Shown: piece by piece, positions 15,893 to 19,345 of the stretch
Position numbering within the stretch: position 1 is the first letter of the stretch
How the letters are laid out: each line of letters begins with the position of its first letter
Source: Candidatus Methanoperedens sp.
Lineage (GTDB): Archaea; Halobacteriota; Methanosarcinia; Methanosarcinales; Methanoperedenaceae
Direction of reading: 5' to 3'
NCBI GenBank assembly: GCA_021409285.1
Contig: JAGFND010000015.1
Location: forward strand, 1 to 32,496
DNA length: 32,496 bases
Notes under the pieces: generated by a model
The model's database searches: none
Told to the model about the DNA's origin: nothing
The model's input: only the letters and a program-made list of their open reading frames with translations
Translations under genes and position numbers: made by a program

Positions 15893-15919
15893 TATTTATA
15901 TATACTAAAATTTAAATAG
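15893..15919 (+). promoter_or_regulatory. Promoter region of the KaiC-GTPase-Roadblock run
   Basis: Two A/T elements are candidates: ATTTATATATAC at about 15894-15905 and TTTAAATA at 15911-15918. The second is about 30 nt from the ATG at 15945, the first about 45 nt. The gap contains no other obvious signal. Confidence 0.4.
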
Positions 15920-15944: not shown

Positions 15945-16649
15945 ATGAGCGATTATACAACGGGTATTAAAGAATTAGATGCTGAAATAGGTGGCATAAA
16001 AAAAGGTTCGAACATAATGCTGATAGGCCCTCCTATGAGCGGGAAAGAAGTCATTCTTTATAATATCATGTATCATGGGGCAGTAAGAAATGAAAATGCT
16101 GTGATATCTGTAACTACTAGGGAATCTGCGAACAACATAATTGAATGGTTCAAAGAGAACAATCTCATCCTCCCTATGTCAAGGATAGGGATCGTGGATT
16201 GTGTCATAAAAACACTTGGTGGAGCCGTGAATGAAAACGAGAGTATCAAGATCGCAAGCAGCCCGGTCGATCTCACTGGCATTGGAGTAAAAATCAGTCA
16301 GTTCTTTGAAGAGTTCTTTATGAAAAAGAACATCAAGAAAAACCAGCTTCATATTAATTCACTTTCAACCATATTGATGTACTCAAATATCCAGACCGTA
16401 TTCAGGTTCCTGCATGTGTTTACAGGACGCATAAAAGCCGCAGGCGCTATTGGAATATATGTTATCGAGAGTGGAATGCATGATGATCAGTCAATAGCTA
16501 CGCTAAAACAGCTTTTTGATGGCATGATCGAGGTAAAAATTGAAAATGACCGGAATTTCCTCCGGATGGTAGGTCTATCCCCGAAACCCACCAGATGGCT
16601 CGAATATGAGATAGAAGGAGCCAATGTAAAGATATTAGGAGGAAAATAG
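15945..16649 (+). CDS. KaiC/RadA-like ATPase homologue with altered active-site motifs
   Basis: A 234-residue single-domain protein of the KaiC/Rad55 branch of the RecA superfamily; the start TTGIKELDAEIGGIKKGSNIMLIGPP is diagnostic. The Walker A reads GPPMSGKE (28-35): the lysine is kept, but the residue that should be Ser/Thr and bind magnesium is Glu35. The Walker B strand reads LHINSLSTIL, with Asn138 where KaiC proteins have Asp. ATP hydrolysis is therefore doubtful although nucleotide binding may remain. The next gene begins one base after its stop with GGAGG as ribosome site, so the two products are likely partners. No membrane segment is visible. Its role is not established. Confidence 0.85.
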   Translation: MSDYTTGIKELDAEIGGIKKGSNIMLIGPPMSGKEVILYNIMYHGAVRNENAVISVTTRESANNIIEWFKENNLILPMSRIGIVDCVIKTLGGAVNENESIKIASSPVDLTGIGVKISQFFEEFFMKKNIKKNQLHINSLSTILMYSNIQTVFRFLHVFTGRIKAAGAIGIYVIESGMHDDQSIATLKQLFDGMIEVKIENDRNFLRMVGLSPKPTRWLEYEIEGANVKILGGK

Positions 16650-16650
16650 A

Positions 16651-17820
16651 ATGATAGAGACCGGTGTTCCAAAGCTGGATGAGTTTTTGGCCGGAGGTAT
16701 ACCCAAAGGGAAAAGCCTTATATATTATATCCAGCCAGGCGTTGAGGGGGAGGTTTTCGGGATGCAAACAGTTTATAATTCTTTAAAGAGCGGAGGAACC
16801 TGTGTTTTTGTTGCATCAAGCACCATACCTGAAATAATAAAGACTCAATTCAAGGAATTCGGCTGGGATATAGGCCCATACCAGAAAAAACTTTTTTTTG
16901 TTGATGCATACAATCCATTGATAGGCGTCCCTTCAAATGAGAAGTACGTTGTGCAGAATCCGGACAGGATTGACGAATTCAATAAAACCATCCTCAACAT
17001 ATTAAAGGAGCTACCGCCGAGCACAATCGTGTTTGGCTCTTTATCAACCGTAATGGATCTTTGCGGTGAGAAGGAAACTATCGATGCTGTAAGGAACTGG
17101 AATAAGATGGCGATGCTGTACGATCATATAATGGTCTATAATTTCACAGCGTGGCCATATTCACAGGAAACCCTGGATACAATAAGGAAAGACCTTTTCA
17201 ATGCGGTCATCTCCATTGGGGGAATAGCTGAAAGGGTCATATTTGGTCAGTATTTTGGAATTTCAAAATCAGACTGGACAAATGAAACAAAGAAATCGAT
17301 GCTTTTCAGGGTTTTAAGACCGGGAGGTATCAGACTATTCATTCCCAAGATACTTGTTACAGGGCCTTTTGATGCAGGTAAATCCACATTTGTTCATGCC
17401 CTCTCATCAAGAGCGATATCTGTGGACAGGCTCGGGACCACAATAGCGCTTGATCACGGCCATATTGATTATAAAGGTTTCAGCGCGGACATATTCGGAA
17501 CACCAGGCCAGGAGCGATTTGATCCGATCATAAAACTGTTGAGTGGCGAATCAATGGGAGTTTTTCTTATTGTTGATTCCACAAACCCAACAGATTTTGT
17601 ACGAGCAAAACATATGCTTGAGATCACAAAATCATATGGGCTGCCTTATGTGGTCATAGCCAATAAACAGGACCTGTCAGGTGCTCTGACGCCTGCAGAA
17701 ATAAGAAAACAATTCAATTTACCGGATGATGTACCTATAGTTCCTGCAGTAGCAAAAGATAAGATAGGAATATTTGAGGCATTTGAAGTTTTGCTTGATA
17801 AAATAACAGGAGGTATCTGA
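16651..17820 (+). CDS. Fusion of an inactive KaiC-like domain and an MglA/CvnD-type small GTPase
   Basis: A 389-residue two-domain protein. Residues 1-215 are KaiC-like (TGVPKLDEFLAGGIPKGKSL), but the P-loop is PGVEGEVF with no lysine, and the Walker B strand is IVFGSLSTVM with Gly for Asp, so this half should not use ATP. Residues 230-389 are a Ras-like GTPase with G1 GPFDAGKST (238-246), the switch threonines LGTT (261-264), G3 FGTPGQERF (282-290), G4 NKQD (338-341) and a G5-like AVAKD. FGTPGQ in place of DTAGQ is usual for prokaryotic MglA/CvnD-type GTPases. The stop overlaps the start of a Roadblock gene, the usual partner of such GTPases. The KaiC fusion is what stands out. Confidence 0.88.
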   Translation: MIETGVPKLDEFLAGGIPKGKSLIYYIQPGVEGEVFGMQTVYNSLKSGGTCVFVASSTIPEIIKTQFKEFGWDIGPYQKKLFFVDAYNPLIGVPSNEKYVVQNPDRIDEFNKTILNILKELPPSTIVFGSLSTVMDLCGEKETIDAVRNWNKMAMLYDHIMVYNFTAWPYSQETLDTIRKDLFNAVISIGGIAERVIFGQYFGISKSDWTNETKKSMLFRVLRPGGIRLFIPKILVTGPFDAGKSTFVHALSSRAISVDRLGTTIALDHGHIDYKGFSADIFGTPGQERFDPIIKLLSGESMGVFLIVDSTNPTDFVRAKHMLEITKSYGLPYVVIANKQDLSGALTPAEIRKQFNLPDDVPIVPAVAKDKIGIFEAFEVLLDKITGGI

Positions 17821-18188
17821 TGGCTGACACTATTGATCTGATAGATCATTTGCTTTCTGATCTTAAAAAAGTCGGAGGGGTCGAAGCATGCGCAGCTGCA
17901 AGCCGTGATGGCCTGCTGATCCGTGCTATTATGCAAAAAGAGCAAATCTCTGAATCATTTGCAGCAATGTCAGCCACAATGCTTGGGGCAGCTGAAACGG
18001 CCACAACTGAACTTGGAAAAGGCATACCTAATCGGATCGTTGTGGAAGCAGAACACGGACGTTTGATCGTGGTTGGAGCCGGACCTAAAGCGCTCCTTAT
18101 CGTGCTTATAGATCCTTCAATAGGACTTGGATTGATACTTCTTGAACTTGAAAAAGCTGCAGAAAAGCTCAAAGAGCTATTGACATGA
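17820..18188 (+). CDS. Roadblock/LC7 domain protein (MglB-like)
   Basis: A 122-residue protein made of one Roadblock/LC7 domain: helix 1 IDLIDHLLSDLKKVGGVEACAAAS, the strand RDGLLIRAIM, the long helix AAMSATMLGAAETATTELG, then RIVVEAEHGRLIVVGAG and a C-terminal helix. Such proteins form dimers that bind and often activate MglA-like GTPases. It starts on the last base of the stop of the GTPase fusion gene (TGATG) behind a strong AGGAGGT site, so equal expression is likely. Its own stop overlaps the next ATG. A GTPase-activating role toward the fusion protein is inference from family and position. Confidence 0.92.
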   Translation: MADTIDLIDHLLSDLKKVGGVEACAAASRDGLLIRAIMQKEQISESFAAMSATMLGAAETATTELGKGIPNRIVVEAEHGRLIVVGAGPKALLIVLIDPSIGLGLILLELEKAAEKLKELLT

Positions 18189-18457
18189 ACAGCAAACAGC
18201 AATATAAGGCCGATACTCCAGGACTTGAAGTTTCGCTTCATGTCGGTAAATCAGGTATCGATAAGGTTGTTGAAGAATTAAGGATGCAGCTTAAGAACAA
18301 AAGAATTGTAAAAGTAAAATTCCTGAAGACGGCGATCATTGACGGGAATAAACAGGAATTAGCAGAAAAACTGGCTAACCTGACAGATTCAGAAGTTATT
18401 GAAGTTCGCGGGAATACTGCAGTATTCTGCCGAAAAGGATTAAATACTATACGATAA
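18185..18457 (+). CDS. YhbY/CRM-domain RNA-binding protein
   Basis: A 90-residue protein made of one CRM domain: VSLHVGKSGIDKVVEELRMQLKNKRIVKVKFLKTA includes the conserved GKxG-like loop (GKSG), followed by a helix rich in ELAEKLANLT and the strand pair VIEVRGNTAVFCRK. Such proteins associate with pre-ribosomes in bacteria and archaea, so a role in ribosome assembly is likely. Its ATG overlaps the stop of the Roadblock gene by four bases. It stands before the S19e gene, consistent with ribosome biogenesis. No zinc or extra domain is visible. Confidence 0.92.
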   Translation: MNSKQQYKADTPGLEVSLHVGKSGIDKVVEELRMQLKNKRIVKVKFLKTAIIDGNKQELAEKLANLTDSEVIEVRGNTAVFCRKGLNTIR

Positions 18458-18460
18458 ATA

Positions 18461-18509
18461 AGACCCCTGAAAGACTCAAAGGATTACCTCAGAATTAATT
18501 CCGGGGTCT
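18461..18509 (+). promoter_or_regulatory. Inverted repeat in the S19e leader
   Basis: AGACCCC (18461-18467) and GGGGTCT (18503-18509) are perfect complements separated by 35 nt, in the 90-bp gap between the CRM gene and S19e. In RNA this would form a large-loop hairpin ending about 38 nt before the start codon. It could be a processing, termination or autoregulatory element; no known ribosomal-protein leader motif was recognised. Confidence 0.45.
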
Positions 18510-18547
18510 ATGCTCTAATAAATATGATTCTACGGAGGATTAACAAA

Positions 18548-18997
18548 TTGACAACAATATATGATGTGCCGGCAGATTTGCTCATAAACAACGTGGCACA
18601 GAAATTGAAAACAGAGGAGAAAGCCAAACCCCCCGAATGGGCAAACTTTGCCAAGACCGGAGCCCATAAAGAACTTGCACCAGATAATGCAGACTGGTGG
18701 TACGTAAGATGTGCTTCAATATTAAGACGCGTTTACATCGATGGACCTGTTGGCATTTCACGCCTTAGAAGTTTTTATGGCGGACGGCACAGGAATGGAG
18801 TAACAGGAATACACTTCTCAAAAGGCAGCGGCTCTATCGCAAGAGAAGCATTGCAGCAGCTTGAAAAAGCAGGGTTCATAAAAACCCAGAAAATCGGGAG
18901 AACACTTTCACCGCAGGGTCAGTCGTTCCTGAATAATGCAGCAAACGAAGTCAAAACAGAACTTATAAAGACGAATCCGGCTCTTGCCAAATATTAA
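18548..18997 (+). CDS. rps19e: 30S ribosomal protein S19e
   Basis: A 149-residue small-subunit protein present in archaea and eukaryotes. Recognised by TTIYDVPADLLI at the N-terminus, the ADWWYVRCASILRRVYIDGPVGI core and the RSFYGGRHRNGV basic loop. The TTG at 18548 is chosen as start: GGAGG lies 9 nt upstream and homologues begin MTTxYDVP. An ATG eight codons earlier (18524) would put that ribosome site inside the coding region. The next gene starts within 10 bp, the usual archaeal S19e-PDCD5 pair. Confidence 0.95.
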   Translation: MTTIYDVPADLLINNVAQKLKTEEKAKPPEWANFAKTGAHKELAPDNADWWYVRCASILRRVYIDGPVGISRLRSFYGGRHRNGVTGIHFSKGSGSIAREALQQLEKAGFIKTQKIGRTLSPQGQSFLNNAANEVKTELIKTNPALAKY

Positions 18998-19006
18998 TAA
19001 GTGAAC

Positions 19007-19345
19007 ATGGAAGACGATATTGAAGAGATAAGACGTCGCAAACTTGAGCAACTGCAGCAACAGCAATATAGTGCTCAGGCGCAGGCCTCACAGAATGAGC
19101 AGGCTCGTGCTGAATTCGAAGCAAAAAAACAATCAATTCTTCGCCAGATACTCACTACCGAGGCGCGGGAGAGATTGAATACCCTCAAGATGACAAAGCC
19201 AGAGCTTGTGGCAAACGTCGAGGTGCAGCTTATTTCCCTTGCTCAAGGTGGACGGATTAATCAAAAGATAGATGATGCGAAGCTTAAAGCTCTTCTTCTT
19301 CAATTACAACCAAAGAAGCATGAGATGCAGATCAGAAGGGTTTAG
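19007..19345 (+). CDS. PDCD5-family DNA-binding protein
   Basis: A 112-residue basic-acidic helical protein of the PDCD5/TFAR19 family: DIEEIRRRKLEQLQQQQ at the start, a glutamine-rich helix, then the compact helical core with ILTTEARERLNTLKMTKPELVANVEVQLISLAQGGRI. Members bind DNA and occur next to S19e in many archaea. The ATG at 19007 is favoured over a GTG two codons earlier since homologues start close to the DxIEEIRR motif. In many archaea L39e, L31e and eIF6 follow; here the cluster ends and a convergent acyl-CoA dehydrogenase follows after 5 bp. Confidence 0.93.
   Translation: MEDDIEEIRRRKLEQLQQQQYSAQAQASQNEQARAEFEAKKQSILRQILTTEARERLNTLKMTKPELVANVEVQLISLAQGGRINQKIDDAKLKALLLQLQPKKHEMQIRRV

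Follow-up and report, generated by a model that had tools for sequence, protein, structure and literature searches.

In Myxococcus and Thermus, the gene for the small GTPase MglA stands beside that for the Roadblock protein MglB, which is both a GAP and a GEF (PMC11016934). The census of Wuichet & Sogaard-Andersen 2014, which classified GTPases of up to 240 aa, describes MglA Groups 2-5 as having GTPGQ in G3, a G2 Thr where Group 1 has Arg, and an MglB partner with an Asp-Gly pair (PMC4316618). The conservons CvnA-D of Streptomyces (MglA Group 2) and mfp of Mycobacterium likewise hold a GTPase with GTPGQ in G3 and a Roadblock protein in one operon. In Asgard archaea, the combination of GTPase, Roadblock and V4R proteins has been discussed for the origin of eukaryotic TRAPP/Ragulator, and the GTPase genes of MK-D1 are reported to lie generally outside operons with Roadblock or TRAPPC3/V4R partners (PMC10933270). 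The KaiC fold is represented by KaiC and by archaeal KaiC-like ATPases (PH0284, SSO2452).

We analysed a window of 32,496 nucleotides (the whole stretch of DNA under study) from a 2.78 Mb genome whose close relatives are Ca. Methanoperedens, or ANME-2d. A compact operon in this window encodes a KaiC-like protein (KaiC1), a KaiC:GTPase fusion and a Roadblock protein, with YhbY packed behind them and all four genes on the + strand. In the feature list and throughout the text, motif counts refer to 110 distinct fusions, 87 KaiC1 proteins and 91 Roadblock proteins.

15945..16649, + strand: KaiC1, KaiC-like protein of DUF7504/DUF7090 type, 234 aa (Pfam); adjoins the fusion in nearly all loci
16026..16049, + strand: altered Walker A of KaiC1, GPPMSGKE, with Lys retained and Glu for Ser/Thr (sequence)
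16356..16358, + strand: Walker B position of KaiC1, Asn138, in LHINSLST (sequence)
16651..17820, + strand: KaiC2:GTPase fusion, 389 aa, 1 bp past the KaiC1 stop (sequence, Pfam)
16651..17340, + strand: KaiC2 domain, residues 1-230 (Pfam KaiC 1.2e-18; AlphaFold2; Foldseek)
16732..16758, + strand: former P-loop of KaiC2, QPGVEGEVF, the replacement motif (homologue alignment, n=110)
17341..17817, + strand: small GTPase domain, residues 231-389, MglA Group 2-5 type (Pfam Arf 6e-11, Ras 2e-9)
17362..17388, + strand: G1, GPFDAGKST (Lys 110/110)
17494..17511, + strand: G3, FGTPGQ (Gly283 110/110, Gln287 106/110)
17662..17673, + strand: G4, NKQD (Asn 110/110, Lys 107/110, Asp 109/110)
17820..18188, + strand: Roadblock/LC7 protein (122 aa), start codon ATG overlapping the fusion stop at 17820 (Pfam Robl_LC7 5.8e-13)
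17907..17912, + strand: Asp-Gly pair of the Roadblock protein, in SRDGLL (Gly 91/91, Asp 84/91, Glu 7/91)
18185..18457, + strand: YhbY, its start overlapping the Roadblock stop (Pfam CRS1_YhbY)

An earlier note on this DNA had reported a Glu in the GPPMSGKE of KaiC1 and an Asn in its Walker B, a P-loop devoid of Lys and a Walker B Gly in the second KaiC, G1, G3 and G4 motifs in the GTPase part, and the overlap of the fusion stop with the Roadblock start. All of these observations are confirmed in the sequence, where the Walker B Gly of the second KaiC stands in IVFGSLST; the interpretation built on them, in which the KaiC fold is a scaffold or nucleotide sensor, the GTPase a switch and Roadblock its regulator, is partly supported. 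A short element, TTTATATA (15895-15902), resembles an archaeal TATA box and lies ~43-50 bp upstream of the KaiC1 start.

We assign a probability of about 0.6 to the reading that these genes encode a GTP-switch module, in which Roadblock would regulate an MglA-type GTPase seated on a pseudo-KaiC platform and KaiC1 would be a partner. The MglA-family GTPase (Group 2-5 type), placed behind the KaiC2 fold, would act as the switch. KaiC2, devoid of an ATP-binding P-loop, would probably serve as an assembly or docking platform and perhaps assembles with KaiC1, for which ATP binding may persist in some lineages. A dimer of the Roadblock protein would bind the GTPase and set its nucleotide state, putatively as GAP, GEF or platform, and sensors encoded nearby in other genomes (V4R, six-PAS, one protoglobin) may feed signals into the module.

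The GTPase, the two KaiC proteins and the Roadblock protein

The GTPase domain matches the MglA Group 2-5 type, an assignment that rests on motifs and Roadblock coupling. The Lys of G1, Thr264 of G2, Gly283 of G3 and the Asn of G4 are invariant in all 110 homologues, which fits the proposal of the earlier note that the GTPase is the switch, as the part likely to cycle between nucleotides. G3 reads GTPGQ and lacks the Asp of DxxG (Gly283 in 110, Gly286 in 106 and Gln287 in 106 of the 110), G2 carries TT with Thr replacing the intrinsic Arg, and an MglB/Roadblock gene lies within four genes, except in a Methanomicrobiales-like group and in three second copies. The resemblance to MglA/MglB and CvnD/CvnB that had been proposed is thus borne out by the Group 2-5 motifs of Wuichet & Sogaard-Andersen 2014. 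At 389 aa the fusion exceeds 240 aa and is not a single-domain GTPase, and it lies outside the published census because of that limit, which is a feature of the census and not of the mechanism; KaiC does not occur in the main text of that paper (PMC4316618).

The module shares with MglA/MglB a small GTPase gene beside a Roadblock gene, and with the archaeal MglA Group 4 of methanogenic Euryarchaeota (PMC4316618) the GTPGQ motif, a classical G4 and MglB coupling. Unlike MglA/MglB, it has its GTPase joined to a pseudo-KaiC and includes KaiC1 as well. Whereas MglA Group 1 has an intrinsic Arg and TVPGQ, the module GTPase has a second Thr in G2 and GTPGQ, and the long C-terminal extension that MglB uses for GEF activity is absent from the 122-aa Roadblock protein. 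The likeness to conservons and mfp extends to the single operon and the GTPGQ of G3; unlike them, the module has a KaiC pair, lacks a histidine-kinase-like CvnA or a CvnC (no kinase-like or CvnC-type gene was found in the operon by sequence or Pfam) and reads NKQD rather than NxFD in G4. A known annotated family was considered and rejected: no NCBIfam equivalog scored above its cut-off, the generic small_GTP domain alone passing, and neither Pfam nor NCBIfam places the fusion in a common family of known function. No other protein of the window's genome matches the Arf model, and there are five Roadblock proteins.

The KaiC2 domain of the fusion has kept its fold and changed its P-loop. The Walker A Lys is found in none of the 110 homologues, and in most of them the motif P-G-V-E-G-[DE] stands in its place (P in 105, G in 97, V in 99, E in 90 and G in 97 of 110), while in Walker B most have Gly or Glu instead of Asp. 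KaiC2 is predicted to be incapable of binding ATP in the usual way. Because the G motifs are near-invariant, the KaiC2 Lys is gone everywhere and PGVEG is conserved, the pattern points to re-use of the P-loop as a new conserved motif, not to decay. The AlphaFold2 model of the window's fusion (mean pLDDT 90, pTM 0.82) has as its best PDB match in Foldseek the KaiC-type ATPase PH0284 (2dr3; target TM 0.86), and KaiC2 thus retains the fold without the P-loop. Judged as a KaiC ATPase, it has the KaiC/RecA fold and lacks the Walker A Lys and the Walker B Asp. Its fold is like that of PH0284, SSO2452 and KaiC; it differs from all three in the absence of the P-loop Lys and of the catalytic Glu pair and in its fusion to a GTPase. 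As a side observation, one locus (L050, 5001-6650) encodes a homologue of the KaiC domain of the fusion with an unrelated C-terminal region of ~320 aa (weak CN_hydrolase match) and no GTPase.

KaiC1 belongs to DUF7504 (4.9e-23; 82.9 bits against a gathering score of 27), with further matches to KaiC (3.8e-11) and DUF7090 (1.4e-10). With Methanomicrobiales left out, its P-loop Lys is present in 83/87 homologues, and the Ser/Thr position of Walker A holds Glu or Asp in 71/87 and Ser in 11, including Archaeoglobi. In Walker B, Asn occurs in 64 of the 87 and Asp in 19. The ability of KaiC1 to bind ATP may therefore differ from lineage to lineage, because Lys, Ser and Asp are retained unevenly between lineages. 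The earlier description of two motif-degenerate KaiC proteins thus holds in full for the KaiC domain of the fusion alone: the two are unequally degenerate, since KaiC1 keeps its P-loop Lys and some of its homologues are fully intact, and the idea that both are equally dead was rejected. Intact Walker motifs in homologues, which had been named as evidence against the proposal, were found for KaiC1 and not for the KaiC domain of the fusion. Sequencing error or a local artefact was ruled out, the motif changes recurring in more than 100 homologues.

These data bear on an alternative in which KaiC1 is the sensor and its ATP/ADP state is relayed via KaiC2 to the GTPase, the module being an energy sensor and not a scaffolded switch. 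The widespread P-loop Lys favours it, as do the intact Ser and Walker B Asp of Archaeoglobi (GPPLVGKS plus Asp) and of the ANME-2 paralogue (GPPKTGKS plus Asp). However, even these intact-Walker proteins lack the KaiC catalytic Glu pair (ITTKDT, LMTD), the window's KaiC1 has no complete Walker A and B (GKE with Glu at the Mg-ligand Ser/Thr, and Asn), and the P-loop Lys is lost entirely from KaiC1 of the Methanomicrobiales-like group. We consider an energy sensor unlikely.

Under the preferred reading of a scaffolded GTP switch, the Roadblock protein is the likely regulator of the GTPase, as the earlier note had proposed; it adjoins the fusion in nearly all loci and is fused to it in cis in one. 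It contains a Robl_LC7 domain (Pfam 5.8e-13) and the Asp-Gly pair published as the signature of MglB proteins coupled to Groups 2-5 (PMC4316618). It scores 22 bits against the MglB equivalog NF052242 (cut-off 200), and among solved structures it comes closest to other Roadblock proteins (9jue, 7f8m and 7yh1), followed by CvnB5 (3leq) and MglB. We take 7f8m and 7yh1 to be chains from the Asgard work introduced above. In a model of a natural KaiC:GTPase:Roadblock protein, the KaiC and GTPase parts are confident and the Roadblock part has a pLDDT of ~42-74, so we claim no GTPase-Roadblock interface from it.

The neighbours of two further Roadblock genes of the window's genome were also read. One, similar to that of the window, lies directly before a canonical two-domain KaiC with intact motifs (locus L176, contig C176, 4565-6380), and by coordinate comparison such Roadblock-KaiC pairs recur in many Methanoperedens and some ANME-2a/b genomes, which counts in favour of the preferred reading. 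The other precedes an OBG-like GTPase gene (L178, 2881-4461; sequence reading).

Conservation of the gene set and its neighbourhood

Gene order was read in loci from close relatives, a phylum sample and named public contigs; the evidence from beyond the phylum comes from the named-contig scan, which covers the best 80 of 175 matches. The fusion had matches in 55/60 close relatives (E<=1e-3; KaiC-only matches counted). After removal of duplicates and exclusion of a diverged group (L154-L167, likely Methanomicrobiales), 98 distinct fusions were retained, 91 of which had enough flanking sequence. KaiC1, fusion and Roadblock are all present in 87 of these 91 evaluable loci, which belong to ANME-2/3, Archaeoglobi, Methanocella-like and other archaea, in agreement with the earlier view of the genes as one module. 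Because the trio is kept in 87/91 loci and the motif losses recur, neither chance nor local error accounts for the arrangement.

Among the 87 complete loci, 80 have the order of the window, four (ANME-2 paralogues) have the inverted order Roadblock-fusion-KaiC1, two (Alkanophaga) have Roadblock-X-fusion, where X is a very weak KaiC1 match (the L137 copy has no Pfam family at all), and one carries Roadblock in cis, the KaiC, GTPase and Roadblock domains forming a single protein of 546 aa (L152). Intergenic gaps within the module have a median of 2-4 bp. The persistence of the set in permuted order, together with the cis fusion, is the best argument from sequence for joint action of the three products. 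At the level of sequence, the components, their conserved linkage, the gains and losses of motifs and the cis fusion of Roadblock are established. Given its joint retention across many archaeal lineages, the module has the appearance of a genuine signalling system that is still undescribed.

The four incomplete loci comprise three Methanoperedens second copies that lack Roadblock (L047-L049) and a single locus that lacks KaiC1 (L150). The excluded group L154-L167 retains KaiC1 and the fusion, has no Roadblock nearby and in some members has altered G3/G4. Roadblock is thus not always required, since this group and the three second copies do without it. The alignment also revealed a tandem repeat in the KaiC-GTPase linker of the second copies, at least two of which have GTPDQ as G3. 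In the three loci of L154-L167 that were examined, the module lies between FeoB-like GTPase and diphthine-synthase-like genes (sequence reading).

Downstream of the window's module, positions 18185-19345 encode YhbY, ribosomal protein S19e and a PDCD5-type DNA-binding protein, a succession that is near-universal at the Methanoperedens loci read. A module placed directly before these genes, with the YhbY start overlapping the Roadblock stop, could be a housekeeping factor of ribosome or translation, a membrane- or ribosome-targeting GTPase with an SR-beta-like role; ANME-2a/b and ANME-3 retain parts of this context, and the GTPase domain of two homologues has weak SRPRB similarity. Yet the trio or pair stays together beside other neighbours in ANME-2c, Archaeoglobi, Alkanophaga, Methanocella-like and Methanomicrobiales-like loci, and the paralogue adjoins a PAS sensor, which makes this role quite improbable. 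That the genes are linked for expression only, their three products having no joint action, is more improbable again: the second copies and the Methanomicrobiales-like group, lacking a Roadblock neighbour, would agree with it, but the permuted orders, the cis fusion and the joint occurrence of Roadblock with the fusion in a survey of 186 genomes speak against it.

For the GTP-switch module, the neighbours in other lineages offer candidate inputs; none of the neighbours of the window's own module is a sensor gene. In Archaeoglobi, a V4R-domain gene overlaps Roadblock or follows it directly. In another euryarchaeal MAG (L132) V4R likewise overlaps or follows Roadblock; the V4R genes there number three, and Roadblock is present a second time. 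Two ANME-2c loci have V4R genes farther away, one of them on the contig of the paralogue, and the ANME-2a/b paralogue has a six-PAS protein upstream. Among solved structures, those most similar to the V4R protein belong to phenol-sensing regulators such as MopR. This distribution suggests that the V4R and PAS neighbours are interchangeable, lineage-specific sensors of the module. At one Archaeoglobaceae locus (L149, 1846-2955), a protoglobin gene and then a V4R gene come after Roadblock. With V4R, the module comprises the three folds known from Asgard archaea as small GTPase, Roadblock and TRAPPC3/V4R proteins (PMC10933270); in contrast to what is reported for MK-D1, the three share operons here, with KaiC in addition.

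Distribution, inheritance and significance

Of 186 genomes of the order Methanosarcinales, 71 carry the fusion (E<=1e-60) and 76 carry Roadblock, and all 71 fusion-positive genomes were also Roadblock-positive, the archaeal co-occurrence that the earlier note had proposed to look for. Within the family Methanosarcinaceae (~112 genomes by subtraction, 95 of the negative genomes carrying no family names), matches are limited to one genus (g149) and a single genome of another (g144). The former includes HMMV2, which is ANME-3, Ca. Methanovorans (Chadwick et al. 2022); the main text of that study does not mention KaiC, Roadblock or GTPase. In Methanosarcinales the module is thus kept in anaerobic methanotrophs, including ANME-3 inside a methanogen family; hardly any of the other genomes searched there has it.

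Outside Methanosarcinales, Archaeoglobaceae carry the module. So does another family, which we take to be Methanocellaceae. Four incomplete genomes of one genus (g9 of family f4) lack it. The module was therefore rejected as a general ANME marker, and its link with methanotrophy is limited to Methanosarcinales and is a correlation only, because Archaeoglobaceae and the presumed Methanocellaceae carry it.

In the fusion tree, ANME-2c, ANME-3 and a group of Methanoperedens with ANME-2a/b form separate well-supported clades, with weak deep branches. Horizontal transfer among ANME was considered and set aside, these clades giving no sign of recent transfer. The history of the fusion is compatible with inheritance and loss.

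We found no published description of the module in the literature searched, of which the KaiC survey of Makarova et al. 2017 (mBio) was not a part. We tentatively propose an undescribed archaeal GTPase system, in which an MglA-type switch on a nucleotide-blind KaiC assembly would be regulated by Roadblock, served by interchangeable sensors (V4R/TRAPPC3-fold, PAS) and retained by ANME in Methanosarcinales, suggesting a methanotrophic or syntrophic role. If true, two signalling folds, KaiC and the MglA/Roadblock switch, would be joined in a pairing undescribed in the literature searched. The fusion is also a clear example of a new conserved motif taking the place of the P-loop in a KaiC fold, and the Archaeoglobi operon unites GTPase, Roadblock and V4R (TRAPPC3-fold) in euryarchaea. 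Genomes outside Methanosarcinales carry the module too; within the order, it divides ANME from almost all other genomes searched and is therefore a candidate, and only a candidate, for lifestyle-specific regulation.
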